NCBI GenBank assembly: GCA_903888485.1
Contig: CAISTS010000032.1
Location: 1 to 64,000 of the forward strand
Length of the DNA stretch: 64,000 nt
Source of the DNA: an uncultured bacterium
GTDB lineage: Bacteria; Pseudomonadota; Alphaproteobacteria; Rhodospirillales; Rhodospirillaceae
Reading direction: 5' to 3'
Part shown: positions 10,807 through 44,676 of the stretch, piece after piece
Layout of the letters: each line of letters opens with the position of its first letter
Numbering within the stretch: the stretch's first letter is position 1
Made by a program: the position numbers and the translations under genes
The notes under the pieces: model-generated
The model's input: the letters and a program-made list of their open reading frames with translations, nothing else
The model's database searches: none
What the model was told of the DNA's origin: nothing

Positions 10807-11805
10807 TCAAAGCCGGGGCAGCGACCCGTGCAGCCTGAACCACGCAATGGCATCATGAAGCGCATCGTCAACGGGCCGCGCCGCATAGCCCAGGTCACGC
10901 GTCGCCTTCGCATGCGTGAAAAACATGCGCTTCTTCGCGAGCTTGATTCCATCGACGGTCATGAAGGGCTCGCCCGTGCGCAGAAGTTTGGCGGCAAACT
11001 CCACGACGTAGGCGAGCGGTAAAATAGCCCCATGCGGCAACTTGATCGTCGGCGCCTTGCCCCCTGTGAGCACCGCGATGCGCGTGAGGATTTGCTGCAA
11101 GGTCAGATTCTCGCCGCCGAGGATGTAGCGTTCGCCGACGGCACCCTTGTCGTGCGCGAGCAGATGCCCTTCGGCGCAATCGTCCACGTGCACGAGGTTA
11201 AGACCGGTATCGACAAAAGCCGGCATGCGACCGGCAGCAGCTTCGATCACCGTACGGCCTGTCGGCGTCGGCTTGACGTCGCGCGGGCCTACGGGCGCAG
11301 TGGGGTTGACGATCACCACCGGCAAGCTTTCCTCGCGCGCCAGGCCGCGCACGGCCTCCTCGGCGAGATATTTCGAACGCTTGTAGGGGCCAATCATGTC
11401 GGTTAGCAGCACCGGCGTGTCTTCGGTCGCCGGCGTACCGTCGGCGGGAATGCCGAGCGTCGCAACGCTGCTGGTGTAGACGATGCGGTCCGCGCCGGCA
11501 TCGGCGGCGCGGCGCAGGAGATCAGTGGTGGCATCGACGTTGGTCGCGTACATCGCCGCGGGATCAGGCACCCACAGGCGATAGTCGGCGGCGACGTGAT
11601 AGAGGCTGCTGATGCCGGCGCAAGCAGCACGGCGCGCCGCCTCATCACGCAAATCGCCCTCGACGATCTCGACATCGAGTTCGGCCAGATTGCGCCGGTC
11701 GCCGCCCTTGCGCGCCAGCACGCGCACCGCCTCGCCGCGCGCCAGCAGCTTACGCGCCACGGCCGAGCCGATGAAACCCGTCGCCCCGGTGACGAGCGCG
11801 GTCAT
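10807..11805 (-). CDS. hpnA: Hopanoid-associated sugar epimerase HpnA
   Basis: A 332-residue extended short-chain dehydrogenase. The NAD(P)-binding loop TGATGFIG lies at residues 7-14, and the catalytic YxxxK motif appears as YKRSK. The mid-region text ADYRLWVPDP and VTGPRDxKPTPTG-like segment (here APVGPRDVKPTPTG) match HpnA of hopanoid clusters. The product is thought to be a dihydroflavonol-4-reductase-like sugar epimerase, but its exact substrate is not established. Its ATG overlaps the TGA of the upstream acetyltransferase in the string ATGA, so the two are co-translated. The hopanoid genes hpnK and hpnN lie just upstream on the other strand, supporting the call. Confidence 0.9.
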   Translation of the reverse strand: MTALVTGATGFIGSAVARKLLARGEAVRVLARKGGDRRNLAELDVEIVEGDLRDEAARRAACAGISSLYHVAADYRLWVPDPAAMYATNVDATTDLLRRAADAGADRIVYTSSVATLGIPADGTPATEDTPVLLTDMIGPYKRSKYLAEEAVRGLAREESLPVVIVNPTAPVGPRDVKPTPTGRTVIEAAAGRMPAFVDTGLNLVHVDDCAEGHLLAHDKGAVGERYILGGENLTLQQILTRIAVLTGGKAPTIKLPHGAILPLAYVVEFAAKLLRTGEPFMTVDGIKLAKKRMFFTHAKATRDLGYAARPVDDALHDAIAWFRLHGSLPRL

Positions 11806-12227
11806 GCGAAATCCTTTTTCAGGAAATAGCGTGCGTGACCGGGGGGGAAATTTTCTATCGCGCCAAACACACTATAGCCGAGCTTCTCGTAGAAGCCGCG
11901 CGCTTGGAAGCTGAAGGTGTCGAGCCACACGCCGCGGCACGCGCGCGCCCGGGCTTCTTCCTCCGCCGTCGCCATCATCTTGCGGCCCAACCCATTTCGG
12001 CGCATCTCTTCGGGTATGAACAGGAGTTCGACAAACAACCAGGTGCCCGCGGTCCTTCCCCACAGGCCGCCCATCGGCGCACCCGTCTCGGGATCGCTCA
12101 GCACAACCGCCAGCGGACGCGAGGCCATGCCCGGCACCGCCGCCTCGTTGAAGGCGCCGAGCCCGCGGATGATCGCATCACGCGCCTCTGTTGTGGGCTT
12201 GTCGGTCAGTTCGATCTTGGGGATCAT
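11802..12227 (-). CDS. GNAT-family N-acetyltransferase
   Basis: A 141-residue acetyltransferase of the GNAT fold. The acetyl-CoA loop reads RRNGLGRKMMATAEEEA, and the C-terminal segment has TFSFQARGFYEKLGYSVFG, where the Tyr and the FYEKLGY motif are typical. The acceptor is unknown. Three in-frame ATGs are available (12257, 12242, 12227), the first two created by a 15-base direct repeat; the last one starts the conserved sequence. The gene overlaps hpnA by 4 bases and is divergent from hpnK with only 54 bases between them. It could acetylate a hopanoid amino group, but this is only suggested by its place. Confidence 0.8.
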   Translation of the reverse strand: MIPKIELTDKPTTEARDAIIRGLGAFNEAAVPGMASRPLAVVLSDPETGAPMGGLWGRTAGTWLFVELLFIPEEMRRNGLGRKMMATAEEEARARACRGVWLDTFSFQARGFYEKLGYSVFGAIENFPPGHARYFLKKDFA

Positions 12228-12233
12228 GGTACT

Positions 12234-12260
12234 TTCTAACATGGGGAGTTCTAACATGGG
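12234..12260. repeat. 15-base tandem direct repeat in a divergent promoter
   Basis: The sequence ttctaacatggg occurs at 12234-12245 and again at 12249-12260, a 15-base offset. The repeat lies in the short gap between the acetyltransferase and hpnK. On the minus strand each copy contributes an ATG in frame with the acetyltransferase, so copy number changes the N-terminus by five residues (MLELP, MLEST). Confidence 0.6.
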
Positions 12261-12281
12261 CAGGCGCGCCCTTAAACCCGC

Positions 12282-13082
12282 ATGAAACACGTCATCTTCA
12301 CCGCCGACGACTTCGGCATGGCGCTCGAGGTCAACGAGGCCATTGCGCAGGCGCATCGGGGCGGCGTTCTCAGCGCCGCGAGCCTGATGGTCGCCGCGCC
12401 GGCGGCGGCCGATGCGGTCGCGCGCGCCAAGCAGATGCCAAAGCTGCGCGTGGGCCTGCACCTCACATTGGTCGATGGCCGTCCACTGTTGCCGCCTTCG
12501 GAGATTCCCGCACTGGTGGGCGCAGACGGCGCCTTTCCCACCAATCTCGCCGCCGCCGGCGTGCGCTGGTTCTTCTCGCCCGCCGCGCGGCGCGATCTGC
12601 GCAAGGAGATCACGGCGCAGTTCGCTGCATTTCGTGCGAGCGGCCTGCCCCTCGATCACGTCAATGCTCACAACCATATGCACCTTCACCCGACGGTGCT
12701 CGGCATCATCATCGAACTCGCGCGTGAATATGGCGTGACGGCGGTGCGGCTGCCGGCCGAACCGCCGCAGCTGGGTCTTGCCCCGTGGCTTGCGTTGATG
12801 CGCGCGCGCCTGGCCCGCGCGGGGCTTAAGCATAATGATGTACTGGTGGGTTTACGCGCGAGCGGCCACCTCACCGAAGCGCGCGTGCTCTCGGCCCTCG
12901 ACCACCTTCACGAGGGTGTCAGCGAATTCTATTTCCATCCGGCCACGACCGTAACGCCGGCGCTCGCAACGGCTGCCCCGGGTTATGACCGCACCGGCGA
13001 GTTGCATGCGCTCACCAGCCGGCCCGTGGCCTTGCGCCTGGCCGCGCTTGGCCTGGTTCCGTGCGGCTTCCGTGACCTATAA
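12282..13082 (+). CDS. hpnK: Hopanoid deacetylase HpnK (YdjC/ChbG family)
   Basis: A 266-residue carbohydrate deacetylase-like protein. Metal ligands are visible in TADDFGM (residues 7-13) and in the cluster NAHNHMHLHP; GLHLTLVDGRP is another conserved family segment. In hopanoid producers HpnK removes the acetyl group from N-acetylglucosaminyl bacteriohopanetetrol made by HpnI, giving glucosaminyl bacteriohopanetetrol. The companion genes hpnI and hpnJ lie 7-8 kb downstream in the same window. A dioxygenase-like gene and hpnN follow on the same strand with gaps of 83 and 46 bases, so they probably share a transcript. Confidence 0.9.
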   Translation: MKHVIFTADDFGMALEVNEAIAQAHRGGVLSAASLMVAAPAAADAVARAKQMPKLRVGLHLTLVDGRPLLPPSEIPALVGADGAFPTNLAAAGVRWFFSPAARRDLRKEITAQFAAFRASGLPLDHVNAHNHMHLHPTVLGIIIELAREYGVTAVRLPAEPPQLGLAPWLALMRARLARAGLKHNDVLVGLRASGHLTEARVLSALDHLHEGVSEFYFHPATTVTPALATAAPGYDRTGELHALTSRPVALRLAALGLVPCGFRDL

Positions 13083-13165
13083 GTCACGTTCTTTCACTTT
13101 GTTTTTCAGGGTCTTGCATTCCTCCTCTTGGCCGATAGGATGGCTTGGCTAAAACGCGGGGACGC

Positions 13166-13978
13166 ATGAAGGCCAGCCTTTTGACTTCGAACGGATCACC
13201 GATTCCGTTCTCACCGCAGTACTTCTCAGAACTCAAGGCGACCGATCCGGGGCTTGATGCGGGCACACTGCGCGCGCGTTTTGCCGAAGACGGCTACGTG
13301 CTGCTGCGCGGCGCCATTCGGGCGGACGTCGCGCGCCGCACGCGCGCCGCCTACCTCAGCCTTTTTGACGGCCGCACCGATTTACCGGCGCACGGGTTCC
13401 GCGGTCATCCGGCCTACGATTTCGTGCGCTCGGACGACTTCCGCGCCTTTGCCGACATGCCTGTGTTCCGCCAGATCGCGGAGACGTTTTTCGATGCGCC
13501 CGCCGCGCGCATCCACCGTACCCCGCTGCGCCAATTCATTCCGGGCCGCAAGATCGCCAGCCGCGCCCATATGGACCGCACCTATATTGACGGCGTCGCC
13601 GCCGATGTGGTGACCCTCTGGGTGCCGCTGGGCGACAGCCCGTTGGTCTCCGGCGGGCTTATTTATTTGGAAGACTCGCACAAAGACTGCGATCTCGAAG
13701 TCACCGTGCGCGCCGAAGCGCCGCGCGACCGCGCCGCCGACATGCGACCACTCACCCACGACCTCAAATGGGTGGCCGACCGCACGCAGCGCCGCTGGCT
13801 GTGGGCCGACTATCAGGCGGGCGACGTGGTCGTGCATTCGCCCACCATCGTGCACGCCTCGACCGACCCGGGCGAAACCACGCACATGCGCATTTCGACC
13901 GACATTAGGTTCCATCGCTGCGGCAGCCCGATCGATCCGCGTTGGTCCAAGGACTGGTCCGCCGACGACGGGTATTAG
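13166..13978 (+). CDS. Phytanoyl-CoA dioxygenase-like oxygenase
   Basis: A 270-residue non-haem iron(II) and 2-oxoglutarate-dependent oxygenase of the PhyH family. The iron triad is visible as His135-x-Asp137 (RAHMDRTY) and a distal His230 in GDVVVHSPTIVHAS; a late Arg in THMRISTD could bind 2-oxoglutarate. I chose ATG 13166, preceded by cgggga, over an in-frame TTG at 13145. The family hydroxylates or halogenates lipids, alkaloids and other small molecules. It sits between hpnK and hpnN on one strand, so a hopanoid-hydroxylating role is attractive, but I know of no assigned Hpn letter for it and the substrate is inferred only from context. Confidence 0.82.
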   Translation: MKASLLTSNGSPIPFSPQYFSELKATDPGLDAGTLRARFAEDGYVLLRGAIRADVARRTRAAYLSLFDGRTDLPAHGFRGHPAYDFVRSDDFRAFADMPVFRQIAETFFDAPAARIHRTPLRQFIPGRKIASRAHMDRTYIDGVAADVVTLWVPLGDSPLVSGGLIYLEDSHKDCDLEVTVRAEAPRDRAADMRPLTHDLKWVADRTQRRWLWADYQAGDVVVHSPTIVHASTDPGETTHMRISTDIRFHRCGSPIDPRWSKDWSADDGY

Positions 13979-14024
13979 GCGCTTGGTTTAACCGATCGCT
14001 GGGTCCTGCTATCTTCCCGCTGCA

Positions 14025-16637
14025 ATGTTAGGCACCCTTTTCGAGCGACTTGTGCGCGCCTGCCGGTGCGCGCCGCTGGCGGCCACGGCGCTGATCTTAC
14101 TGATCGCAGCGCTGGCCGCCTTCGGCGCCGTCCGCACGCTCGGCATGAACACCGACTCCCTCGCGCTCTTCGGTGAAGGCCTCGATTTCCGCGCCGCCGA
14201 AGCGGAATTTGACCGGCAGTTTCCGGGCGAGGTCGAGCTGATCGTTGCCGTCATCGATGGCCCGTCCGCGCCCGCGGCCCAGGCCGCTGCCGACAAGCTG
14301 GCCGCGCACCTGGCCCCGCGCACCGACATCTTCCACAGCGCCCACAACCCGACCGGCGGCGCGTTCTTCGCCAACAACGGACTTCTTTATCTATCGACCC
14401 AGGAGCTTGAACAGCTCACGACCGAACTCGCACGCGCGCAGCCGTTCCTCGGCGCCATCGCCACCGACCGCAATGCGCGCGGCCTGTTCCGCCTGTTTGA
14501 GCTGGCCTTCACAGCCGCCGCCCAGGGCGAGACGGCGGTCGCCGCCATTGCACCCGCCGCCGACCAAACGAGTGACGTCATCGAAGCGCTCCTCGCCGGC
14601 AAACCGGCGACCATGAACTGGGGCAATCTCTTTAGCGGCCTCGCCCCGCCCGGGGTTTCCAACCGTGCGATGGTGCTGGCGCAGCCGAAGCTCGACCTCA
14701 CGGCTCTTGAACAAGGTGCGCCCGCAACGGCTTTCATCCGCGAAGGCGCACGCGAACTGGGCCTTACACCGGAAAACGGCTATCGCGTGCGGCTCACGGG
14801 ACAAGTTCCGCTCAACGACGAAGAACTCGCGACCGTCGCCGAGGGCACCGGCATCTCCGGCATTCTCTCCGTCGTACTCGTGACCATCCTGCTTTTCATG
14901 GGCTTGGGATCGGGTCGCTTGGTTTTCGCGACATTGGTCACGCTCGTCGTCGGTCTCGTGCTGACCCTCGGCTGGGCGGCGATCTCGGTGGGCGAGCTCA
15001 ATATGATCTCGGTCGCCTTCGCCGTGATGTTCGTCGGCATCGCCGTCGACTTCGGCATCCAGTTTTGCATGCGCTACCGCGCCGAACGCCACGCGCGCGG
15101 CGACGATGCCGTCAGCCTCGATCAATCCCTCGATGCGTCCGGACGAGCAATGGCCAAACCCTTGACCCTGGCGGCGGCCACCACGGCGCTGGGATTCTTT
15201 TCATTCCTGCCCACTGATTATCGCGGCGTCTCGCAGCTCGGCATGATCGCCGGCGGCGGCATGATCATCGCCATGCTGCTGAGCTTCACGTTGTTGCCCG
15301 CGCTGCTGCGCCTCTTGCGCGCGCGCGGAGAAAAGGGCGAGGTGGGCTACGCCTGGGCTGCGCCGATCAACCAGACTCTGGTGACGCACCGCTATGCCGT
15401 ACTGGCGGGCGCCGCGCTGTTTGCGCTTCTCTCGCTCGCGGCGCTGCCGCGCCTGGTATTCGATTTCGACCCCCTGAAGCTCAAGGACCCCGACACGGAA
15501 TCCATGTCGACGGCGATTGAGCTGATGAACGACCCCTTGGTCAATCCGAACACGCTCAACTCGTTGGTGAAGACGCCGGAAGAAGCGCGCGCACTGGCCG
15601 GTAAGCTGAGCGCCCTGCCCGGTGTCAGCCATGCCATCACCATCTTCGATGTGATCCCCGAGGATCAGGACGCCAAACTGGCGATGCTCGAAGAACTTTC
15701 GTTCCTGATGGGTCCGGTGTTTCAGCCGCAGGAAGCCAAGCCCGCGCCGACGCGCGATGAAGCCGCAGCCGCGGCGCGTGCCGCACGTGACGCGGCGCAG
15801 ATGTATGCGAGCGCGCCCAGCGCCGCCGATCCTTTGCGCGCCGCAGCGCAGCGCCTCGTCGCAGCCATTGACATGATACTGGCATCAAGCGATCCGGCGA
15901 TCTTCGACAAGTTCTCGGCGGCGGTGTTGAACGGCTTCGACGAAGCGCTCGCGCCGCTGGCGGCCGGCCTCAATGCCGCGCCGGTGACGCTGCAGAGCTT
16001 GCCATCCGAGCTGCGCGCGACGTTCATATCCGTGGATAGGCGATATCGCGTGCAGGCGTTCCCCAAGCTTGAGGGTTCACAAGCGCCGACTCTGTCGGAA
16101 TTCCTCACACAGGTCCGCAGCGTGACGCCGGACACCATCGGCGCGCCGCTGGTGATTGAGGAAAGCGGGCGCATCGTCACCGGCGCTTTCCGCACCGCGG
16201 CGCTGCTGGCGCTGGTCGCTATTGGTATCGTCCTGTTCATCGTGTTGCGCCGCCCCGGCGATGTCGCGCGCGTGTTGGCACCTTTGCTGCTTGCAGGACT
16301 GTTGACCCTCGGCACCTGCGCGCTGATTGGATTGCCCATCAACTTCGCCAACATCATCGCCTTGCCGCTGCTGCTGGGCGTTGGCGTCACCTTCCCGATT
16401 TATTTCGTCACCGCCTGGCGCGAAGGCGAAGCCGTGCTGCTGGCCTCGCCCACCGGCCGCGGCATGCTCTACAGCGCGCTCACCACAGCGGCGGCCTTCG
16501 GCAGCCTCGCCATCTCGACCCACACCGGCACATCGACCATGGGCATCCTGCTGACACTCGCCCTATTCTATACGCTGCTCGCAACACTGATCGTGTTGCC
16601 GGCACTGCTGGGTCCGCCGCCATCTCCACAACGCTAA
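14025..16637 (+). CDS. hpnN: Hopanoid RND transporter HpnN
   Basis: An 870-residue MMPL/RND-type inner-membrane transporter. The architecture is one N-terminal membrane helix, a periplasmic domain (residues about 40-270), five or six helices, a helix near residue 460, a second periplasmic domain (about 490-720) and a final helical bundle. Membrane cores include FAVMFVGIAVDFGIQF and GVGVTFPIYFVTAW. HpnN is known to move hopanoids from the inner to the outer membrane. It ends 20 bases before a palindromic hairpin and converges on hpnM. Length and two-fold repeat fit the family. Confidence 0.93.
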   Translation: MLGTLFERLVRACRCAPLAATALILLIAALAAFGAVRTLGMNTDSLALFGEGLDFRAAEAEFDRQFPGEVELIVAVIDGPSAPAAQAAADKLAAHLAPRTDIFHSAHNPTGGAFFANNGLLYLSTQELEQLTTELARAQPFLGAIATDRNARGLFRLFELAFTAAAQGETAVAAIAPAADQTSDVIEALLAGKPATMNWGNLFSGLAPPGVSNRAMVLAQPKLDLTALEQGAPATAFIREGARELGLTPENGYRVRLTGQVPLNDEELATVAEGTGISGILSVVLVTILLFMGLGSGRLVFATLVTLVVGLVLTLGWAAISVGELNMISVAFAVMFVGIAVDFGIQFCMRYRAERHARGDDAVSLDQSLDASGRAMAKPLTLAAATTALGFFSFLPTDYRGVSQLGMIAGGGMIIAMLLSFTLLPALLRLLRARGEKGEVGYAWAAPINQTLVTHRYAVLAGAALFALLSLAALPRLVFDFDPLKLKDPDTESMSTAIELMNDPLVNPNTLNSLVKTPEEARALAGKLSALPGVSHAITIFDVIPEDQDAKLAMLEELSFLMGPVFQPQEAKPAPTRDEAAAAARAARDAAQMYASAPSAADPLRAAAQRLVAAIDMILASSDPAIFDKFSAAVLNGFDEALAPLAAGLNAAPVTLQSLPSELRATFISVDRRYRVQAFPKLEGSQAPTLSEFLTQVRSVTPDTIGAPLVIEESGRIVTGAFRTAALLALVAIGIVLFIVLRRPGDVARVLAPLLLAGLLTLGTCALIGLPINFANIIALPLLLGVGVTFPIYFVTAWREGEAVLLASPTGRGMLYSALTTAAAFGSLAISTHTGTSTMGILLTLALFYTLLATLIVLPALLGPPPSPQR

Positions 16638-16758: not shown

Positions 16759-17379
16759 CTAACTCCCCTTATTCGCTTCAGCCGCCAGTTTGTTCATGTG
16801 CGCAACAAGGTCGGCGGGTGTGCCTTTGCTGAGCACGGTGGCGAATTGCGCGCGGAACGTCGCGAGTTGGCTGATGGCGCCGTCGAGGAAAATATCGACC
16901 GCCTTCCAGGTCTCGCCTGATTTCTGCATGCGGTAATTGAAGGCGACCGGTGCCATGCCATTCGGGATGAGCTGCGTGTTGACGAGAACATTGCCCTTCC
17001 CGTCCTCGGGCGTCTGGCTTTTGGTGACGAAGCTTTCGCCGTCAAAGGCGCTGAAGTTTCCGGCGTAGCTCGCCGTCGTCCACTTCGCGAAGGCTTCCGT
17101 GATGGCCGCTTTGTCGGCGTCGGACAAATTCGCCCAGGCCGCCGCACCCGTGGAGATGCGCGCCATGGTGGGGATATCGAAGGTCTCTTTGATGATCGGC
17201 TCGAGCTTGGCGCGGCGGCCCTCAAAACCGAGCGCTTTGCCGTTCTTCATGTTGTCGATGAGCGCCGCATGAAAACGCTCGATACTCGCCGTCTGCGGCT
17301 CGGCGGCCTGCACCGGCCCCAGCGCGAAGAACGCGACGAGACCCAAAAGCCACATTCTCATGAATAAGCTGAGAATCAT
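16759..17379 (-). CDS. hpnM: Hopanoid-associated periplasmic protein HpnM (MlaC-like)
   Basis: A 206-residue exported protein of the MlaC/Ttg2D superfamily. A signal peptide spans residues 1-25 (core MWLLGLVAFFALG, cleavage near VQA-AEP). The rest is the lipid-carrier domain, with ETFDIPTMARISTG and AITEAFAKW segments typical of the family. HpnM is thought to carry hopanoids or other lipids across the periplasm together with HpnN. I took ATG 17379, which has a ggggtt Shine-Dalgarno site at 5-10 bases, over GTG 17412. The gene faces hpnN and is divergent from the radical SAM gene at 17480. Confidence 0.88.
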   Translation of the reverse strand: MILSLFMRMWLLGLVAFFALGPVQAAEPQTASIERFHAALIDNMKNGKALGFEGRRAKLEPIIKETFDIPTMARISTGAAAWANLSDADKAAITEAFAKWTTASYAGNFSAFDGESFVTKSQTPEDGKGNVLVNTQLIPNGMAPVAFNYRMQKSGETWKAVDIFLDGAISQLATFRAQFATVLSKGTPADLVAHMNKLAAEANKGS

Positions 17380-17479
17380 CAGCAAACCCCATCTGTTGGT
17401 GCTGTACTGCACCGCAAAACCTTGTCATTTATAAGACGATTATAGGCACCTTGGGTCGGGTGCCCAGAAATAGATTTCA

Positions 17480-18634
17480 ATGAACCACGTCGAACATCCC
17501 GCGCAGTTACGCGTAGAAGCCAAACCCGCGAAGCCGCAGCGGCCCGGAACAAATCCGGTGTCCCTCGACACGCTGCGCCTCGTGCTCGGCAAGGGCGGCC
17601 CTGGGTTCTGCCAGTTCGCGCTTAACAACGCCTGCAACGCCAACTGCGGCTTCTGCAACTTCGCGCGTGATAAGTTCCCGAAGTCGCAGTGGAAGTACGT
17701 GGAGCGCGAAGGCGCGCTGGCGGCTATCGATACGCTCTACAAGAACGGCGTGCGCTATTTGGTGTGGACCGGCGGCGAGCCGACGCTGCACCCCGACTTG
17801 ATCGAGTTCACCGAACACGCCGCTGGCCTCGGCATGAAAGTGATGCTGGTGTCCAACGGCGGGCTGTTCAAGCCCGAGAAGATCAAGCGCCTGTATGAAG
17901 CCGGCACGTCGAGCTTCATTATCTCCATCGATGCCGCTGAAGTTGAAGCCCACGAGAACAATCGCGGCCTGCCCGGCGTCTGCGAGAAAATCAAAGAAGC
18001 CAACAAAGTCCTCCAGAGCCTCGGCGTGCAGTCGACCGCTTCGGTCACCATGAGCCGCCTGCTCGACTACGAAAAGCTGCCGGCGTTCCTGAAGGAACTC
18101 GGCTTCGGCGCGGTGACCTTCTCCTATCCGGTGACGGAACTCGGCTCCAACTTCCTCGGCTTTTCCACCTCCGATCTGGTGAACTACTCGAAGGAAGAAC
18201 TTCTCGCCGCTTTCGACAAAGTCAAAGCGCTGAAAAAATCCGACATCCAGGTGTTGAACCCGACGGCGGGCCTCGATGAAATGAAGCGTTATATCCAAGG
18301 CGGCGAGCAGAAGTTCCCGTGCCTCGGCGGCTATCGCTACTTCTATCTCGATTGGGACCTGATGCTGTGGCGCTGTCACTATTGGGCCGAGCCCATGTGC
18401 CACATCAGCGAATTCGACGAGACCAAGACCGTGCGTGACGGCTGCACGAAATGCATGATCGACTGTTACCGCGATTCTTCCGTCATGCATCACATCGGCG
18501 TCTCGGTGCACGACTCCTATCAAGCGTTTAAGCGCGGCGACATCGGCGCCGGGGTCAAGGCCTTGACGCGCAAAGGGAATCTCGGCTCTTTGGGCGCGGT
18601 GATGGAAGAGCTGCCGTGGCTCATCCGGTTCTGA
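17480..18634 (+). CDS. Radical SAM protein with Cys-rich C-terminus, hopanoid-associated
   Basis: A 384-residue radical SAM enzyme of unassigned function. The [4Fe-4S] site is Cys52-x3-Cys56-x2-Cys59 (CNANCGFC), followed by the SAM-binding GGEP in VWTGGEPTLHPD. The C-terminus holds further cysteines (PCLGGY, RCHYW, PMCHIS and GCTKCMIDC), which resembles a SPASM or twitch domain binding auxiliary clusters. It is not HpnH, which is present elsewhere in the window, and lacks the B12-binding domain of HpnJ. It heads an operon: hpnJ follows after 42 bases, then hpnI, an epimerase and hpnL. A step in the head-group cyclitol-ether chemistry, or maturation of another protein, would fit; neither is shown. 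Confidence 0.85.
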   Translation: MNHVEHPAQLRVEAKPAKPQRPGTNPVSLDTLRLVLGKGGPGFCQFALNNACNANCGFCNFARDKFPKSQWKYVEREGALAAIDTLYKNGVRYLVWTGGEPTLHPDLIEFTEHAAGLGMKVMLVSNGGLFKPEKIKRLYEAGTSSFIISIDAAEVEAHENNRGLPGVCEKIKEANKVLQSLGVQSTASVTMSRLLDYEKLPAFLKELGFGAVTFSYPVTELGSNFLGFSTSDLVNYSKEELLAAFDKVKALKKSDIQVLNPTAGLDEMKRYIQGGEQKFPCLGGYRYFYLDWDLMLWRCHYWAEPMCHISEFDETKTVRDGCTKCMIDCYRDSSVMHHIGVSVHDSYQAFKRGDIGAGVKALTRKGNLGSLGAVMEELPWLIRF

Positions 18635-24474: not shown

Positions 24475-24527
24475 TGGCCGAACGACAAAACTAAAAACGC
24501 ATCACTCTAACTTATTCCGGGAGCACC

Positions 24528-35983: not shown

Positions 35984-37239
35984 TGGCCCGCGTGCACATC
36001 ATCGGCGCCGGCATGGCGGGCCTCGCCGCCGCGGTGCGCCTGCGGCCCCTGGGCGCTGCGCTCACGCTTTACGAAGCCGCGCCGCGTGCAGGTGGACGTT
36101 GCCGCTCCTATCACGACCGCGAACTCGATTGTATCATCGACAACGGCAACCACTTGCTGCTCAGCGGCAACAGCGCGGCGATGGCCTATCTGGATGAGAT
36201 CGGCGCGCGCGATAGGTTGGCCGGCCCCACTGATGCCGTCTTTCCCTTTGTCGATGTGGCTAACGGCGCGCGGTGGACTGTGCGCCCCGGCGATAGCCGC
36301 ATTCCGTGGTGGATCTTTGACGCCACGCGCCGCGTGCCCGGCACACGTCCCAGCGACTATCTATCCGTTCTTAGACTGCTAAATGCGACCGGCACCGTAG
36401 CCGAGAGTGTCGGCACAACGGGCGCGCTCTACCGTGCTTTCTGGGAGCCGTTGACCGTCGGCGCCATCAACACCGCGCCTGAACGCGCCGCCGCCGCGCT
36501 GATGGCGCCGGTGCTGCGCGAGACCTTCCTGAAAGGCGCCGCCGCCTGCCGGCCGTTGATCGCGAGAGAGAGCCTTGCCGACACCTTTATCGATCCCGCG
36601 ATTGCGACACTGACGCAAGCGGGCGTCGATGTGCGCTTCGCCGCGCGTGTGCGCGCCCTCGGATTTGCGCAAGGGCGCATCGCCACGCTGGATGTGGACG
36701 GAACCGAAGTGGCCGTCACCGCCGATGATACCGTCATCCTCGCCACGCCGGCGTGGATCACCGAAACCCTGGCGCCGAACCTCAAAGTCCCAGCGGCAGG
36801 CGAGCCCATCGTCAACGTGCATTATCGCCTGAACGCCATGACCGATGTTCGCATTATCGGCGTGATCGGCGGCCTGGCGCAGTGGGTGTTCACACGACCT
36901 GGCCTCGCCTCGGTCACCATCAGCGCGGCCGGCGCGGTGGTCGATGATACCGCTGAAGCGATCGCCGCGCGTTGCTGGCGCGATGTCGCGTTGGCGCTGG
37001 AGTTGGGCGATATGCCTGCCCCGCCCAGCCGGGTGGTCAAGGAACGCCGCGCCACCTTCGCCCAGACGCCCGCCGACCTTGCGCTCAGGGCCGACGCCGT
37101 TACACCCTGGCCGAACCTCTTGCTTGCCGGGGATTGGACGGCTACAGGTCTGCCGGCCACCATCGAGGGCGCGCTGCGCTCGGGCTTCCGTGCCGCCGCC
37201 CTCGTCGGGCAACGCGCGCCTTACCGCAAAGCGGCTTGA
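35983..37239 (+). CDS. hpnE: Squalene-associated FAD-dependent desaturase-like HpnE
   Basis: A 418-residue flavoprotein starting with GTG at 35983. The FAD-binding loop is IIGAGMAGLAAAVRL, and the C-terminal segment LLLAGDWTATGLPATIEGA is the second conserved dinucleotide motif. HpnE reduces hydroxysqualene to squalene in the HpnCDE route. It overlaps hpnD by one base and ends two bases before squalene-hopene cyclase (TGA, then ATG), which is the tightest part of the cluster. Confidence 0.93.
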   Translation: MARVHIIGAGMAGLAAAVRLRPLGAALTLYEAAPRAGGRCRSYHDRELDCIIDNGNHLLLSGNSAAMAYLDEIGARDRLAGPTDAVFPFVDVANGARWTVRPGDSRIPWWIFDATRRVPGTRPSDYLSVLRLLNATGTVAESVGTTGALYRAFWEPLTVGAINTAPERAAAALMAPVLRETFLKGAAACRPLIARESLADTFIDPAIATLTQAGVDVRFAARVRALGFAQGRIATLDVDGTEVAVTADDTVILATPAWITETLAPNLKVPAAGEPIVNVHYRLNAMTDVRIIGVIGGLAQWVFTRPGLASVTISAAGAVVDDTAEAIAARCWRDVALALELGDMPAPPSRVVKERRATFAQTPADLALRADAVTPWPNLLLAGDWTATGLPATIEGALRSGFRAAALVGQRAPYRKAA

Positions 37240-37240
37240 T

Positions 37241-39166
37241 ATGAATATCGACGTCACCGCACCCGCAATTGCCCTCGACCGCGTGATCACCGAAGCGCGC
37301 GAGGCCTTGCTGCGCCGCCAGCGCCCCGACGGCCATTGGGTCTTCGACCTCGAAGCCGACGCGACGATCCCGTCCGAATACATCATGCTCGGCCACTATC
37401 TGGATGAGCGCGAGCCCGACGTCGAAGCCAAGCTCGCGGATTACATCCGTAGCATCCAGGAGGATCACGGCGGCTGGCCCCTGTTCCACCGCGGCGACTT
37501 CGATATGAGTGCCACGGTGAAGGCGTACTTCGCCTTGAAGCTCGCCGGCGACGACATCGATGCGCCGCATATGAAGCGCGCGCGGGAGGCCGTTCACGCC
37601 CGCGGCGGCGCGGAGAAATCCAACGTCTTCACGCGCTATGCCCTCGCGCTGTTCGGCGAAGTGCCGTGGCGCGCTGCGCCGGTGATGCCTGTGGAACTGA
37701 TGCTCGCGCCGAAGTGGTTCCCGGTCACCATCTTCCGCATCTCCTACTGGTCGCGCACGGTCGTTGCGCCGCTGTTGATCCTTGCAGCCTTGAAGCCGCG
37801 CGCCAAGAACCCCCTGGGCGTGCGTATCCAGGAACTGTTCCTCACGCCGCCCACGAAGATCACGCGCTGGCTGAATAATCCCACGGGGCATTGGGGCGGC
37901 ACGTTCTTCCTTCTTCTCGATAAAGTGCTGCGCGTCATCGAACCGCACGCGCCCAAAGCCATGCGCAAGCGCGCCATCGACAAGGCCCTGAACTTCTTCA
38001 CCGAGCGCCTGAACGGCGAGGACGGCCTCGGGGCCATCTTCCCGGCCATGGCCAATTCGGTGATGGCGATGGAAGCCCTGGGTTTCCCGAAGGATCACCC
38101 GGCATTGGTGACCGCCAAGAAATCGATCAAGCTTTTGCTCACGCCCGGCGAAGGGAAAACCTTCTGTCAGCCTTGCGTCTCGCCGATCTGGGACACGGGC
38201 TTGACCGCGCTCGCGATGATGGAAGCCGGCGCGACCGATCAGTCCATCGGCGCGAGCTGCGATTGGCTCAAGGACAAGCAGATCCTGGATGTGAAGGGCG
38301 ACTGGATCGAAAAGCGCCCGCACGTGCGTCCCGGCGGCTGGGCCTTCCAGTACAACAACGCGCACTACCCGGACGTCGACGACACCGCCGTTGTCGGCAT
38401 GGCGCTGCACCGCGCCGATGCCGCCAAGTACGCCGAGCCCATTGCCCGCGCCGCCGAATGGATCGAAGGCATGCAGAGCACCAACGGCGGTTGGGGCGCT
38501 TTCGATGTCGATAATGCCGACGCCTATCTCAATCACATTCCCTTCGCCGACCACGGCGCACTGCTCGACCCGCCGACGGCCGACGTCTCGGCGCGCTGCG
38601 TCAGCTTTCTCGCGCAGATTGGATATGAGCGCAGCCATCCGGTTGTGGCGCGCGGCATCGAATTTCTGAAGAAAGACCAGGAAACCGACGGCAGTTGGTT
38701 CGGCCGCTGGGGCACCAATTACATCTACGGCACCTGGTCGGCGCTGAACGCCCTCAACGCCGCGGGCGAAGACATGCAGCAGCCCTACATCCGCCGCGCG
38801 GTCGAGTGGCTGCTACGGCACCAGAACAGCGACGGCGGCTGGGGCGAGGACGGCGCGACCTATTGGAAAGAGCGCCGTTATGAAAGCAAGGCCAGCACAC
38901 CCTCGCAAACGGCTTGGGCTGTGCTCGGACTCATGGCCGCCGGCGAGGTCGATCACGCCCAGGTCAAACGCGGCGTCGAATGGCTGACCAATGCTCCGCG
39001 CAGTATCGATGGCCGCTGGGTCGAGCCCTGGTTCACCGCCGTAGGCTTTCCGCGCGTGTTCTACCTGCGCTATCACGGCTACGCCGCGATCTTTCCGCTG
39101 CAGGCCCTCGCGCGCTACCGCGACTTGAAGGCCAGCAACAGCAAGGCCGTGCGCCACGGGATGTGA
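37241..39166 (+). CDS. shc: Squalene-hopene cyclase
   Basis: A 641-residue triterpene cyclase (HpnF). The catalytic DxDD motif is Asp378-Val-Asp-Asp381 in YPDVDDTAVVG, and QW repeats are visible as QSTNGGWGAFD, DGSWFGRWG and NSDGGWGED. It cyclises squalene to hopene and diplopterol on the inner membrane face. The start at 37241 is the first ATG after the hpnE stop. Two bases after its stop, a metallopeptidase-like gene begins, so the five genes from hpnD share an operon. It is slightly shorter than the 660-residue norm. Confidence 0.96.
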   Translation: MNIDVTAPAIALDRVITEAREALLRRQRPDGHWVFDLEADATIPSEYIMLGHYLDEREPDVEAKLADYIRSIQEDHGGWPLFHRGDFDMSATVKAYFALKLAGDDIDAPHMKRAREAVHARGGAEKSNVFTRYALALFGEVPWRAAPVMPVELMLAPKWFPVTIFRISYWSRTVVAPLLILAALKPRAKNPLGVRIQELFLTPPTKITRWLNNPTGHWGGTFFLLLDKVLRVIEPHAPKAMRKRAIDKALNFFTERLNGEDGLGAIFPAMANSVMAMEALGFPKDHPALVTAKKSIKLLLTPGEGKTFCQPCVSPIWDTGLTALAMMEAGATDQSIGASCDWLKDKQILDVKGDWIEKRPHVRPGGWAFQYNNAHYPDVDDTAVVGMALHRADAAKYAEPIARAAEWIEGMQSTNGGWGAFDVDNADAYLNHIPFADHGALLDPPTADVSARCVSFLAQIGYERSHPVVARGIEFLKKDQETDGSWFGRWGTNYIYGTWSALNALNAAGEDMQQPYIRRAVEWLLRHQNSDGGWGEDGATYWKERRYESKASTPSQTAWAVLGLMAAGEVDHAQVKRGVEWLTNAPRSIDGRWVEPWFTAVGFPRVFYLRYHGYAAIFPLQALARYRDLKASNSKAVRHGM

Positions 39167-39168
39167 AT

Positions 39169-40143
39169 ATGAAGCGGCTTTTCGCGTTTCTTTTCGCCCT
39201 CTGCTTCCTGTACGCGCCGCGGGCTGATGCGGCGGTTCCCGCCTTCGCCTTCGCCACGATCGACCAAGCCAAGGCCGTTCTTACGGCACGAGATGAATTC
39301 GTGCAGCGCTTAAGCCCGTTCGACCGTGCCGCGCGCCTCAAAACCAATGCGGATGTTTCGGAGGCACAGTATCTGATCTTCGTCGGCACGCAGGCGGCGG
39401 CGTGGAGCGAGGCCGACAAGGCGCAGGTCCAGGCGGTCCTCGCCGATCTCACCCCGCGTCTTGCGGCGATGCCGCTGCCATGGCCGGCGACGGTGCTGCT
39501 CATCAAGACCACGGGGCAGGAAGAAGGCGGCGCACCGTACACGCGCGCCAACGCGATCATTCTACCGGCCACTGTTTTGAGCCGCGCGCCCAGGGGCGAG
39601 CTGCAGGAGATGGTGGCGCATGAGCTTTTCCATATTCTCACCCGGCAGAGCCCGGCACTTAAGGAAAAGCTGTATGCCGCCATCGGCTTCAAGCCCTGCG
39701 GGGAAGTCGCATTTCCCTTAGTGCTGCGGTCGCGCAAGATTACCAGTCCCGACGCCCCGAAGAATGATCACTGCATCCGCCTCGATTTCGCGGGCGAAGA
39801 GGCGTGGGCAATCCCATTGCTGTTCGCCACATCCGAGCGCTACGACCCCGCGCGCGGCGGCGAATTCTTTGCCTATCTCGAGCTTTCGTTCCTGAAAGTC
39901 GAGGGGGGCGGCGCGGAGCCTCCGGCCAAGGCCACTTACGACAACGCGCAGCTTTATCTGGTGCCGGTGACGGCCATCAGGGGGTTCACCGAGCAGGTCG
40001 GGCGCAACACGGAATACATCATTCATCCGGAAGAAATTCTGGCGGACAATTTCTCGCTGCTGCTGGCGCAGGATAAGGCCGTCGCTTCGCCCGACGTGCT
40101 GCAGAAAATCCGCGCCATCTTGCTTGCGGCAAAGCCCTCGTGA
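39169..40143 (+). CDS. Exported HExxH metallopeptidase-like protein
   Basis: A 324-residue protein of unknown family, with a signal peptide (FAFLFALCFLYAPRADA) and a zinc motif at His151-Glu-Leu-Phe-His155 (MVAHELFHILT). A late Glu in PEEILADNFSLLLAQ could be the third metal ligand, as in gluzincins. It begins two bases after shc and overlaps the HAD gene by four (TGA inside GTGACA). Neither gene has a known hopanoid role. It could process an envelope protein needed for hopanoid transport, or merely share the promoter. The call is from the motif alone. Confidence 0.65.
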   Translation: MKRLFAFLFALCFLYAPRADAAVPAFAFATIDQAKAVLTARDEFVQRLSPFDRAARLKTNADVSEAQYLIFVGTQAAAWSEADKAQVQAVLADLTPRLAAMPLPWPATVLLIKTTGQEEGGAPYTRANAIILPATVLSRAPRGELQEMVAHELFHILTRQSPALKEKLYAAIGFKPCGEVAFPLVLRSRKITSPDAPKNDHCIRLDFAGEEAWAIPLLFATSERYDPARGGEFFAYLELSFLKVEGGGAEPPAKATYDNAQLYLVPVTAIRGFTEQVGRNTEYIIHPEEILADNFSLLLAQDKAVASPDVLQKIRAILLAAKPS

Positions 40144-40790
40144 CATCCCCCCGTGACGTCGATCTGGTCGTCTTCGACTTCGACGGTGTGCTCAACCGCA
40201 GTTATGACGCGGGCGGCTTTCTTTGGGCCCGCAATCTTGAGCGCGATCTTGGGTTCACCAGCACCGCGCTCGATGCCGTTCTGTTTCTGAACGACTTCAA
40301 GTCCATCGTCGTCGGGGCTCGCGATCTTGCCGCCGTGCTTGACGAGGTTCTGCCCACGATCAACGCGCGCTGCACAACCGCCGAGTTCATGGACTACTGG
40401 TTCCGCAGCGATCTCATCCCTTGTCACGAGCTGCTCGGTTTCATCGACCGGCTGCGCGCTGCCGGTATCTGCTGCGTGCTCGGCACCAACAACGAACGCC
40501 ACCGCGCGGGCTATATTTGGGACACGCTGCTCAAAACCCGCATGGACGCGCTCTACAGCTCAGGCCTCATGGGCGTGGCCAAGCCCGATACGTGTTTCTT
40601 CCAGCGCATTCAGGACGAGGCGGGCTGCGCGCCCGGGCGCATTCTCCTGATCGACGACATCGCCGAGAACGTCGCCGCCGCGCGGACGCTCGGCTGGCAA
40701 GCCGTGCAATACGGCAACTTCGCCAAGGGCTTGCTGGGCCAGCCCGGCGACCTCTATGCGCTCTTCCCGGCGCATCGCCCCGCCGGTTAA
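40140..40790 (+). CDS. HAD-superfamily hydrolase
   Basis: A 216-residue haloacid-dehalogenase-type phosphatase or related enzyme. The nucleophile motif is VFDFDGVLN near the N-terminus, motif II is CVLGTNNER, the lysine is in GVAKPDTCFF, and motif IV is LLIDDIAENV. The start is GTG at 40140, overlapping the preceding gene. A cap domain of about 60 residues is inserted after motif I. The substrate is unknown; because it ends the hopanoid operon, dephosphorylation of a side-chain intermediate is a possible but untested role. Confidence 0.8.
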   Translation: MTSPRDVDLVVFDFDGVLNRSYDAGGFLWARNLERDLGFTSTALDAVLFLNDFKSIVVGARDLAAVLDEVLPTINARCTTAEFMDYWFRSDLIPCHELLGFIDRLRAAGICCVLGTNNERHRAGYIWDTLLKTRMDALYSSGLMGVAKPDTCFFQRIQDEAGCAPGRILLIDDIAENVAAARTLGWQAVQYGNFAKGLLGQPGDLYALFPAHRPAG

Positions 40791-40900
40791 ACGGCAATTT
40801 ATCCCCTGCCGAAACGAAACGCCGCCACTCGCGTTGTAGTCGTAGTTTGGTGCCTCATTTAACGAGCACGCCGTTTTGCGCGCCCCTCAAGGAGAGAACG

Positions 40901-41791: not shown

Positions 41792-41840
41792 AGCCTTCTA
41801 AGAATTGAGGCCGTCTTCCTTAAGGGACGCGCTTCGTTAG

Positions 41841-41878
41841 ACACGGGTCAGCCAGATATGGACTGACCCGTGTTCTTT
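41841..41878. terminator. Bidirectional terminator hairpin
   Basis: acacgggtcag (41841-41851) and ctgacccgtgt (41863-41873) form an 11-pair perfect stem with an 11-base loop, followed by tctttt on the plus strand. It ends the transcript of the glycine-zipper protein; hpnG starts 33 bases later at 41906. Confidence 0.8.
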
Positions 41879-41905
41879 TGTGAAGCGTCGCGATAAAAAG
41901 GCGCC

Positions 41906-42592
41906 ATGGCGCGCCTCGGCATCATCACCGGCATGGCCTTCGAGGCCGATATCCTGCACAGCGCTGCGGCTCGCTTGAGCGAAGAGCAGCGGCCGCTGAT
42001 CGTCTGTCATGGCTTCGGACGCAGCGCCTCGCGCCGCGCGGCACTGGAAGCCGTCAACAGTGGCGCGGAAGCACTGCTCAGCTTCGGTATCTGCGGCGGC
42101 CTCGACCCGGCCGCTAAAGCTGGCGATGTCCTTACCGCCCGGGAAGTGCGCGACGGTACACAGAATCTCGCCGCCGACGCCGGCTGGACCGACCGCATGT
42201 ATGCGCGCCTCGGTGGCGGCTTGCGCGGCGCTATCGCTCACGGGCCCCGCGTGCTGACGACGCCCGCCGAGAAGCGCGCGCTCTTCGAGACCAGCAAGGC
42301 TTCCGCCGTCGATATGGAAAGCTTCGGCGTCGCCGAGATCGCGGCCATGCGCGGGGTTCCCTTCGCCGCCCTGCGTGTAGTGGCCGATACCGCGGCCGAC
42401 GAGCTGCCCGACGTGGCCGTCGCCGCCGTCACAGCCGAGGGGCACGTGCGCGTGATGAAATCGGTGATGGGGGCCCTCGCCCATCCCCAGCAGATTCCGT
42501 CGCTGATCTGGCTGGGGCGGCGCACCAAAGCGGCGCGGGGCGTTTTGGTCGGGTTAGCCGACCTTGGCCTGGCGCGCGGCTTCTTTTTGTGA
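41906..42592 (+). CDS. hpnG: Adenosylhopane nucleosidase HpnG
   Basis: A 228-residue phosphorylase/nucleosidase of the purine and MTA/SAH-nucleosidase type. Conserved parts include [17 protein letters not shown] and the purine-site segment [15 protein letters not shown]. HpnG removes adenine from adenosylhopane made by HpnH, leaving ribosylhopane, the precursor of bacteriohopanetetrol. It and hpnH are convergent and their coding ends overlap by 39 bases (42554-42592). The start ATG follows a short upstream region and the family N-terminus fits. Confidence 0.92.
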
Positions 42593-43717
42593 GGGCGGCA
42601 GCGAGTCCGTCAGCGCCTTGACCTGCTTCTCGAAGACGTATTGCGCCGGGCGCTGCTTATCGAGCGCGATCTCCGGCGCCATGGGGCCTTCGGTGTTCAC
42701 GCCCTTCAGCATGACCATCAGCGCCTGGAGCGGGTGCTTGGCGGTTTCGATCACCGAAGTCGGTTCGAAGCCCGAGTGCACCATGCAGTTGGCGCATTTC
42801 TCGTAGTTGCCGACCCCGTAGTCGTCCCAGGCCGTGGTCTCCATCAGCTCCTTGAAGCTTTTCACGTAGCCTTCGCCGACGAGGTAGCAAGGGCGCTGCC
42901 AGCCGAAGACGTTGCGCGTCGGGTTACCCCACGGCGTACAGGCGTAGGTCTGGTTGCCGGCGAGGAAGTCGAGGTACAGGCTCGACTGGTTGAACACCCA
43001 CTTCTTCATGCCTTTGTCGAGGCGTTCCTTGCCGAGACGGAAGATGCTGCGGAACAGCTCCTTGGTCTTACTGCGCGACAGGAAGTGATCCTGAACGGGC
43101 GCGCGCTCGTAGGCATAACCCGGCGCCATGGTGACGCCTTCGACGCCAAGCTGCATGGCGTAGTCGATGAATTCCGCGACGCGCTCGGGCACGGCGTTGT
43201 TGAACAGCGTGCAGTTGATGGTGATACGGAAGCCGCGCTTCACCGCCTCTTGGATCGCTTCAACCGCGCGGTCGAACGTACCCGGCTGCGAAACGGCGTG
43301 GTCGTGCTCTTCGCGCAGGCCGTCTAGATGGATGGACAGCGTGAGGTACGGGCTCGGCTTGAATTGATCGAGCTTCTTCTTGAGCAACAGCGCGTTGGTG
43401 CAGAGATAGACGAACTTCTTGCGCGCAACGATGCCCTCGACGATTTCGACGATCTCTTTGTGCAGAAGCGGCTCGCCGCCCGGGATCGAGACCACCGGTG
43501 CGCCGCATTCATCCACGGCCTGGAAGCATTCTTCCGGCGAGAGGCGGCGATTGAGGATGCTGTCGGGGTAGTCGATCTTGCCGCAGCCCGCGCAAGCGAG
43601 ATTGCAGCGGAACAACGGCTCGAGCATTAGCACCAGCGGATAGCGCTTATTGCCGAGCAGCTTCTGCTTGACGATATAAGCGCCGACACGGACTTGCTGA
43701 ATGACGGGAACGGCCAT
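42554..43717 (-). CDS. hpnH: Adenosylhopane synthase HpnH (radical SAM)
   Basis: A 387-residue radical SAM enzyme. The iron-sulfur motif is Cys38-x3-Cys42-x2-Cys45 (CNLACAGC), with [13 protein letters not shown] as the SAM-binding strand. HpnH adds a 5-prime-deoxyadenosyl radical to hopene (diploptene) to form adenosylhopane. The C-terminal part carries further cysteines (CANCMVHSG) as usual. It runs opposite to hpnG, overlapping it by 39 bases, and its start is 14 bases downstream of the ispH stop on the same strand, so ispH-hpnH is a pair. Confidence 0.95.
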
Positions 43718-43731
43718 TTCTTTTTCTTTTC

Positions 43732-44676
43732 TTACTGTGCCGCCGCGGCGGCAATTTCCTTGAGCTGCTTAGGCAGCTTGAAGTGGATGTTCTCGGTCAC
43801 GCCGTCGAGCGGCTCGACCTGGATGTCGGCCAGCGTGCGCAGCTTGGCGATCAGTTCGTCCACCAGCGCTTCCGGCGCCGAGGCGCCGGCGGTGATGCCC
43901 ACGGTCTTCTTGCCGGCAAGCCATGCTGATTCCAATCCGCCGGCATCGTCGATGAGGTAACTGGGCACGCCCATGTCTTCGCCGAGATCGCGCAGTCGGT
44001 TGGAGTTGGAGCTGTTCTTGGCGCCGAGCACCAGGATTACGTCGGACTTCTCGGCCAACTCGCGCATGGCATGCTGGCGGTTTTGCGTCGCGTAGCAAAT
44101 GTCTTTCACATCCGGTCCGTGGATGGCCGGGAAGCGCGCCCGCAGCGCGGCGATGATGTCGCGGGTGTCGTCCACCGACAGCGTGGTCTGGGTGACATAA
44201 GCGAGCTTGTCGGGATCGGTGACCTTGAGCGTGGCAACGTCGGCGACGTTGCCAACCAGATGCACCTTGCCGTCGATTTGCCCGAGCGTGCCTTCGACTT
44301 CGGCGTGACCAGCGTGGCCGATGAGCACGACCTCGAAACCGTCCATGGCGTAGCGCTGGCCTTCGGTGTGCACGCGTGCCACCAAAGGGCAGGTTGCATC
44401 CAGCACCTCGAGGCCGCGCAGGCCTGCGTCGCTTACCACCTTGCGCGAGACGCCGTGGGCCGAGAACACCGTGATGGCGCCTTTGGGGATGTCGCTGACC
44501 TCATCGACGAAGACCGCGCCCTTGGCGCGCAGGTCATCGACCACGCGCTTGTTGTGCACGATCTCGTGCCGCACATAGACCGGCGGACCGAATTTCTTCA
44601 GCGCGAGCTCGACGATTTCGACGGCGCGCACGACGCCGGCACAAAAACCGCGCGGCTGCGCGAGCAAGACTTTCAT
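43732..44676 (-). CDS. ispH: 4-Hydroxy-3-methylbut-2-enyl diphosphate reductase
   Basis: A 314-residue iron-sulfur enzyme of the last MEP-pathway step, reducing HMBPP to IPP and DMAPP. The three cluster cysteines are Cys12 (PRGFCAGV), Cys96 (LDATCPLV) and Cys194 (KDICYATQ), at the family positions. I chose ATG 44676, which gives the usual [12 protein letters not shown] start, over an ATG five codons earlier. The gene ends 14 bases before hpnH on one strand. Together with dxs it ties precursor supply to hopanoid synthesis. Confidence 0.96.

Follow-up and report, generated by a model that had tools for sequence, protein, structure and literature searches.

A hopanoid gene cluster of an uncultured alphaproteobacterium with a predicted variant cyclitol-ether module and a candidate hopanoid-oxidising diiron protein

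The stretch of DNA analysed here (64,000 nucleotides, hereafter the window) is part of contig C32 in a draft alphaproteobacterial genome (3.49 Mb in 89 contigs, 91% complete) and contains a hopanoid gene cluster at positions 10807-44691. As an earlier note on this DNA had described, hpnA, hpnB, hpnC, hpnD, hpnE, shc, hpnG, hpnH, hpnI, hpnJ, hpnK, hpnL, hpnM and hpnN, together with dxs and ispH, could all be placed in this one span by Pfam and NCBIfam, hpnG and hpnL with scores below cut-off. Among them lie genes for a second radical SAM protein (rSAM2), a PhyH-type oxygenase, a GalE-like epimerase, a DegT-type aminotransferase and a ferritin-like diiron protein. From genome comparison we are inclined, by a modest balance of probability, to see here a hopanoid cluster in which a variant cyclitol-ether module would give a tailored head group, with a further-oxidised hopanoid made besides. 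Gene identities were taken from Pfam and NCBIfam scans of the window's open reading frames (ORFs) at curated cut-offs, and the genes concerned are as follows.

10807-11805, minus strand: hpnA, hopanoid-associated sugar epimerase (TIGR03466, 485.6 bits against a cut-off of 367.65)
12282-13082, plus strand: hpnK, deacetylase of bacteriohopanetetrol (BHT)-N-acetylglucosamine (GlcNAc), cyclitol-ether module (TIGR03473, 354 against 232.6)
13145-13978, plus strand: PhyH-type Fe(II)/2-oxoglutarate oxygenase, proposed cyclitol-ether tailoring enzyme (PF05721)
14025-16637, plus strand: hpnN, hopanoid transporter (TIGR03480, 934.5 against 751.85)
16759-17412, minus strand: hpnM, MlaC-like (TIGR03481, 170 against 160.1)
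17480-18634, plus strand: rSAM2, SPASM-like, proposed HpnJ partner (PF04055)
18677-20128, plus strand: hpnJ, cyclitol-ether synthase (TIGR03471, 800 against 577.6)
20152-21345, plus strand: hpnI, divergent glycosyltransferase (TIGR03472, 324.7 against 310)
21342-22340, plus strand: GalE-like NAD-dependent epimerase, which may supply the sugar donor for HpnI (PF01370)
22348-23343, plus strand: hpnL-like, flippase-type membrane protein (PF03706; TIGR03476, 120.8 against 195.65)
28788-29936 (start approximate), minus strand: DegT/DnrJ/EryC1/StrS aminotransferase (PF01041)
29966-30823, minus strand: ferritin-like diiron protein with E...ExxH motifs, proposed hopanoid hydroxylase that co-occurs with HpnH
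31001-31840, plus strand: hpnC (TIGR03464, 274 against 250)
31834-32973 (start approximate), plus strand: hpnB (TIGR03469, 501.5 against 379)
33189-35072, plus strand: dxs (PF13292, 337.5 bits)
35090-35983, plus strand: hpnD (TIGR03465, 309.5 against 278.6)
35980-37239 (start approximate), plus strand: hpnE (TIGR03467, 387.6 against 283)
37236-39166 (start approximate), plus strand: shc, or hpnF (TIGR01507, 761 against 431)
41906-42592, plus strand: hpnG (TIGR03468, 166.2 against 187.1)
42554-43717, minus strand: hpnH, adenosylhopane synthase (TIGR03470, 554 against 225)
43732-44691, minus strand: ispH (PF02401, 310.7 bits)

HpnA, HpnK, HpnN, HpnJ, HpnI, HpnC, HpnB, HpnD, HpnE, Shc, HpnH and HpnM all score above their curated NCBIfam cut-offs, so that the set by which we recognise a hopanoid cluster (shc, hpnC, hpnD, hpnE and hpnH) is present throughout, as is that for BHT cyclitol ether (hpnI, hpnK and hpnJ), with HpnI narrowly above its threshold; two HpnI proteins of family f35 score 424 and 450 bits against the same model. 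For HpnG, TIGR03468 is the best match and synteny also fits, and the shortfall of the flippase-type protein is the reason that we call it HpnL-like. As in the BHT cyclitol-ether pathway (hpnI-hpnK-hpnJ), all three genes are clustered here, with the hpnL-like gene, hpnM and hpnN; the window differs in that its HpnI is divergent and that the epimerase, rSAM2 and the PhyH oxygenase have been added to the unit. HpnJ itself is listed as a cobalamin-dependent radical SAM enzyme in the part of PMC13142503 available to us. In line with the earlier note, none of the window ORFs scanned with NCBIfam was named HpnO, HpnP or HpnR, a negative that extends neither to the window ORFs outside those scans nor to the genome beyond the window. 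That note had also counted five extra gene sets inside the operons; all exist, but the DegT and diiron genes are transcribed divergently from hpnC and stand outside any hpn operon. A GNAT gene next to hpnA and a block of four genes between 23.5 and 27.5 kb, both described below, do not figure in that note.

The association of rSAM2, the PhyH oxygenase and the epimerase with the cyclitol-ether genes is visible in relatives. Loci related to rSAM2 number 54, of which 11 are from close relatives and 43 are others. In all 11 close-relative loci rSAM2 is followed by hpnJ, and in each of the nine relative genomes whose stretch extends that far, hpnI, the epimerase gene and hpnL follow, with the epimerase gene between the other two. 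The PhyH gene sits between hpnK and hpnN in all five loci of the rSAM2 search that show both, and does so too in G016 and G020, in the latter at about 5 kb from hpnN. Among 19 genomes of the same genus HpnH was found in 17, and full rSAM2 in 10 with a fragment in one more. A search of the whole genome gave no HpnJ match (E <= 1e-60) in two that are without full rSAM2, G008 and G011, and neither hpnI nor the epimerase gene nor hpnL was seen within the stretches read, which retain hpnC, hpnD, hpnE, shc, hpnG, hpnH, hpnM and hpnN. G011 holds remnants, namely residues 16-113 of rSAM2, 25 residues of HpnK (242-266) and a PhyH gene spread over two frames with a stretch missing; in the G008 stretch no rSAM2, HpnK or PhyH was seen. 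Because they are lost together with the cyclitol-ether genes in G008 and G011, rSAM2, the PhyH oxygenase and the epimerase group with those genes and not with the hopanoid core, and their membership of the cyclitol-ether module is, as judged by genome comparison, well supported. Separately, the records L034, L035, L037, L039, L041, L042 and L076, titled Candidatus Marinimicrobia, have the hpn synteny of the alphaproteobacterial genus, and these titles look wrong; the Akkermansia and Klebsiella titles of L056, L060 and L083 are likewise doubtful.

rSAM2 has the hallmarks of a SPASM-like radical SAM protein: C52, C56 and C59, and C281, C299, C322, C325 and C329, are invariant in a 36-sequence alignment, and such cysteines would hold the corresponding clusters. 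Its structure model (predicted local distance difference test score, pLDDT, 84) has BlsE as best match in the Protein Data Bank (PDB), and like BlsE, a SPASM radical SAM enzyme acting on a sugar, it combines a CxxxCxxC core with a C-terminal cysteine cluster; it differs in sharing only about 19% identity with it and in reaching no NCBIfam cut-off among the matches listed. BtrN-type dehydrogenases are also SPASM-type radical SAM enzymes that act on sugars, and in 2-deoxystreptamine formation the radical SAM dehydrogenase BtrN is paired with the DegT aminotransferase BtrS.

Kin of rSAM2 at 45-54% identity occur in records titled Verrucomicrobia, Planctomycetota, Bryobacteraceae, Armatimonadetes, Omnitrophota and others. 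HpnJ lies within the rSAM2 locus in seven of the 43 loci of other groups, and a planctomycete locus (L043) has hpnI, hpnJ, rSAM2, hpnK and hpnL consecutively. When 40 of the 43 genomes were searched (L058, L060 and L069, on short contigs, were left out), 38 had an HpnJ match at E <= 1e-60, a raw count, uncorrected for the background frequency of HpnJ in these groups, and 37 had an HpnH-like match at E <= 1e-20, mostly as two weaker pieces. In an alphaproteobacterium of another family (G144), the locus L170 on contig C479 brings together rSAM2 (60% identical), a DegT protein (39%, perhaps of another subfamily) and HpnI (48%), and further holds a third radical SAM protein, an FAD oxidoreductase and an HpnL-like gene. 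Clustering the rSAM2 loci of other groups by neighbours was uninformative. We infer that rSAM2 works alongside HpnJ, with the aminocyclitol or the sugar that precedes it as substrate.

The presence of HpnJ in 38 of the 40 genomes and the joint loss would also suit a reading in which rSAM2 is an accessory of the HpnJ step, or an alternative route, and the cluster ends in the BHT cyclitol ether already known. However, L173, L178, L182 and L183 (all g89) each have HpnJ but show no rSAM2 match along the stretch, and a survey published in 2025, which covers over 6000 alphaproteobacterial genomes and is available to us in part (PMC12583986), records hpnI, hpnJ and hpnK for 31 of the 36 strains that make cyclitol-ether-type lipids, under a scheme that does without rSAM2. 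We consider this reading unlikely, though worth keeping in mind.

The PhyH protein clears its Pfam cut-off comfortably (PF05721, 47.4 against 22 bits), and the residues of its HxD...H motif, H142, D144 and H237, which we take to be the iron ligands, are invariant in six sequences. In a sample of 385 genomes of the class, matches at E <= 1e-20 were limited to three, the window's own and two others at 34-36% identity; the oxygenase is for that reason lineage-specific, and we rejected it as a general hopanoid enzyme. The epimerase shares its NAD-binding residues and the SSS and YxxxK residues with UDP-sugar 4-epimerases of the GalE/WbpP type, the latter two motifs being invariant in 13 rows from 10 genomes, and its top PDB matches are UDP-glucose 4-epimerases and their kin. 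It differs from them in falling below the NCBIfam galE cut-off (174.2 against 262.3 bits) and in its linkage to a divergent HpnI.

The DegT protein is securely placed in its family (PF01041, 311.6 bits), its pyridoxal phosphate lysine, K191, is invariant in 10 rows from nine genomes, and its best PDB match is perosamine synthetase. The gene is syntenic in the family and lies between hpnL and hpnC in several relatives. It is kept in G011, from which the cyclitol-ether genes have been lost, and was not seen in the core-retaining stretch of G008, and on these grounds we rejected the idea that it goes strictly with the cyclitol-ether module. One possibility is that it is an analogue of HpnO that aminates ribosylhopane to 35-aminobacteriohopanetriol. 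Both are aminotransferases near hopanoid genes, although the window enzyme is of the DegT family and HpnO belongs to another aminotransferase class. The position between hpnL and hpnC and the retention in G011 would agree with an HpnO-like role, as would the amino hopanoids recorded, in the available part of PMC12583986, from strains without hpnO; against it, the sequence kin of the protein are nucleotide-sugar aminotransferases such as perosamine synthetase, and it was not seen in G008 even though the core is retained there. We hold the HpnO-like role to be doubtful, and from the sequence comparisons we regard the role of DegT in the pathway as undecided. Downstream of DegT, a small minus-strand ORF (28372-28725) is weakly like (R)-mandelonitrile lyase.

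The ferritin-like diiron protein carries two motifs, E74-X29-E104xxH107 and E144-X34-E179xxH182, that are invariant in 40 aligned rows. The window protein stays below every Pfam and NCBIfam cut-off (for Rubrerythrin, 18.5 bits where 22.8 are required), and at E <= 1 the family members match Rubrerythrin in 26 of 40 cases, AurF in 23 and Ferritin_2 in 11, at best with 1.6e-6; there is also a marginal MiaE-like PDB match (E 0.028). It thus resembles MiaE, AurF and rubrerythrin-like diiron oxygenases in its two E...ExxH motifs and in weak profile matches for part of the family, and differs from them in reaching no family cut-off and in that its strong matches are confined, in the samples searched, to genomes with HpnH. 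In the class sample 27 of 385 genomes have the diiron gene (E <= 1e-20) and 106 have HpnH (E <= 1e-60, the threshold used for the order as well), and all 27 are among the 106. When all surveys are combined, adding G002, G025, G026 and G750, the diiron genomes with HpnH come to 31 of 31; the three diiron surveys overlap. Throughout, a genome fetched twice (for example, L042/L157, L039/L162 and L085/L166) was counted once.

Physical linkage to hopanoid genes is found in some of these genomes. We inspected the context of the gene in 20 of the 26 other class genomes that have it, and hpn genes surround it in five loci (L173, L178, L182, L183 and L186), three of which have two diiron copies; in the tree, three second copies group as a separate clade. 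In L173, L178, L182 and L183, all of genus g89 of family f35, hpnI and hpnJ also lie near. In G026, of a third family, the diiron gene is between hpnN and hpnM. Among plasmid and chromid records the gene occurs in 13, all Burkholderiaceae, of which 11 also have HpnH. In Cupriavidus metallidurans CH34 it adjoins hpnB, hpnA, ispH, hpnH, hpnM and hpnN, and in Caballeronia zhejiangensis a diiron match lies about 180 bases from an hpnJ match; three other named stretches, two from Burkholderia and one from Caballeronia, show no hpn gene within 20 kb of the diiron gene. Twenty HpnH records are without it (Mycetohabitans 9, Azospirillum 7, Streptomyces 2, Roseomonas 1 and Methylobacterium 1), which is weak evidence of absence because their other replicons are outside the collection. 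Clustering by neighbours was again uninformative, and an alanine dehydrogenase-like gene directly follows an unlinked diiron gene in three families (L174:9934-11049, L185:10280-11383 and L177:8059-9183).

The lipid literature offers two kinds of reaction for such a protein. According to the part of PMC12583986 available to us, the genes for bacteriohopanepentol, bacteriohopanehexol and the unsaturated forms are unknown, and no candidates for the pentol and hexol steps turned up near hopanoid clusters; pentol and hexol derivatives are recorded there from Rhodospirillales and Sphingomonadales only. Tetrol and pentol cyclitol ethers and 6-enes were annotated by mass spectrometry in Burkholderia cenocepacia, the saturated pentol cyclitol ether in strain K56-2 only (PMC8560942, seen in part). 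We found the diiron gene in one B. cenocepacia strain, which is not K56-2, and the lipids and the gene, though from different strains, fit a hydroxylase or a desaturase. The protein is, by its distribution, a good candidate for either the pentol/hexol hydroxylase or a ring desaturase.

If it were the missing ring desaturase, responsible for the 6-ene and 11-ene, each of two paralogues would account for one double bond. Desaturases are found among ferritin-like diiron enzymes, and desaturation has in its favour that the hopanoid desaturase genes are likewise listed as unknown in PMC12583986 and that B. cenocepacia is reported to make both 6-ene and pentol. On the other hand, pentol cyclitol ethers are recorded in PMC12583986, so far as available, from Rhodospirillales and also from Sphingomonadales, whereas their unsaturated forms are from Rhodospirillales only, and f35, a family in which the diiron gene is linked to hpn genes, may be sphingomonad, as weak matches of one flanking protein suggest; the flanking proteins gave no other hint on where the diiron-bearing families belong. 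We modestly prefer a hydroxylase and think a desaturase improbable, yet a serious candidate.

The remaining genes inside or next to the cluster look unrelated to the hopanoid pathway by sequence and distribution.

23521-27542: trypsin-like serine peptidase, MoxR AAA ATPase, DUF58 and VWA/BatA block of four genes, which interrupts the hopanoid region
39169-40790, plus strand: the following two genes taken together, judged outside the pathway
39169-40143, plus strand: exported HExxH protein (unmatched in Pfam and NCBIfam; motif and signal peptide recognised by eye)
40140-40790, plus strand: HAD hydrolase

A search of 94 loci gave no convincing match to either the HExxH protein or the HAD hydrolase, although nine genomes of the family are represented there by stretches that carry shc and hpnG (G002, G007, G008, G009, G011, G012, G015, G016 and G020); a 23% match to the hydrolase in G002 (L039, the same as L162) was taken as generic, and in G015 the interval between shc and hpnG holds an ORF that by eye is RcnB-like and another ORF. 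The MoxR block is not tied to the cyclitol-ether genes, because G008 keeps it despite their loss. The proposal that all the extra genes belong to the pathway was rejected, since the HExxH peptidase and the HAD hydrolase lack a convincing match in the loci examined. The opposite proposal, that every extra gene is a chance neighbour and that only known products are made, is likely to hold for the exported peptidase, the HAD hydrolase and the MoxR block; for rSAM2, the PhyH oxygenase, the epimerase and the diiron protein it is contradicted, as far as genome comparison can do so, by the joint loss, the co-occurrence across phyla and the restriction of the diiron gene to genomes with HpnH, and as a general account we consider it very improbable. 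At the other end of the cluster, a short GNAT acetyltransferase gene (11802-12269) overlaps hpnA and has matches beside hpnA in L034 and G011, and a phytase-like esterase fused to an autotransporter beta-domain lies at 7127-9640.

Based on these observations, we propose the following scheme, in which the pathway membership of rSAM2, the PhyH oxygenase, the epimerase and the diiron protein is well supported by the genomic data and the reactions are put forward as hypotheses. First, the UDP-hexosamine on which the divergent HpnI draws would be converted by the epimerase, for example, from UDP-GlcNAc to UDP-N-acetylgalactosamine (UDP-GalNAc). HpnI would then glycosylate bacteriohopanetetrol, HpnK would deacetylate the product and HpnJ would contract the ring to an aminocyclopentitol. 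This head group may be tailored by rSAM2, as a sugar dehydrogenase or epimerase, and hydroxylated by the PhyH oxygenase, and DegT might add a second amine to the ketone so made, on the model of BtrN and BtrS. The diiron protein would be an O2-using enzyme dedicated to hopanoids that most likely hydroxylates the C35 side chain to give bacteriohopanepentol, and a second paralogue elsewhere may perform the next hydroxylation, to the hexol. A tailored cyclitol-ether head group together with a further-oxidised hopanoid is the most likely outcome that can be predicted for the cluster. The fullest version of the scheme, with a new diiron enzyme family making pentols and hexols and a cyclitol ether that is re-epimerised, oxidised by rSAM2 and the oxygenase and perhaps carries a diaminocyclitol made by DegT, is put forward tentatively.

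Several observations weigh against this scheme. In a sample of 150 genomes of the order, rSAM2 (E <= 1e-30) is present in just three and HpnH in 87, and therefore rSAM2 is no general hopanoid step. Two of the 40 rSAM2 genomes of other groups are without HpnJ, several of the HpnJ matches are fragments at contig ends and two are just 44% identical; G144, which is 88% complete, has rSAM2 and HpnJ (70%, on a separate contig) but no HpnH match. The losses in G011 and G008 exceed the module, as the G011 stretch lacks dxs and has hpnB as a mere fragment and no hpnA was seen in G008; in both genomes the search for hpnI, hpnK, hpnL and the epimerase gene covered the stretches read. For the diiron protein, the fold model, built on a four-sequence alignment, has a pLDDT of 44.6, and the overlap with HpnH (naive hypergeometric 5e-17 by genome; 1e-11 by genus, 18 of 18 against 75 of 277) ignores phylogeny. 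Two weak matches (E about 6e-4) were excluded, of which G109 has HpnH and G078 is not among the 87 HpnH genomes. Fifteen of the 20 class loci inspected are not near hpn genes, four of the five that are come from the one genus g89 of f35, and no diiron gene was seen in the cluster stretches read of G015 and G016, in which the module is present. Finally, the protein could be a desaturase, because B. cenocepacia makes the 6-ene too.

The earlier note had suggested that the cluster makes a modified bacteriohopanepolyol beyond the known steps. This is supported for rSAM2, the PhyH oxygenase and the epimerase, which are lost with hpnI, hpnJ, hpnK and hpnL in two relatives, and for the diiron protein, whose strong matches all lie in HpnH genomes in the samples searched; it is not supported for the peptidase and the HAD hydrolase, which lack a convincing match in the relatives examined, and DegT is undecided. 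Among the publications listed by a literature search, with most subscription papers outside its reach, none assigned these extra genes.

Bacteriohopanepolyols are major sediment biomarkers. The diiron family, which in the samples searched strictly co-occurs with HpnH, is a candidate for the pentol and hexol steps. Furthermore, the set of rSAM2, PhyH oxygenase and epimerase predicts an uncharacterised cyclitol-ether head group, which may perhaps be found among the cyclitol-ether isomers of unknown structure recorded in the part of PMC12583986 available to us.

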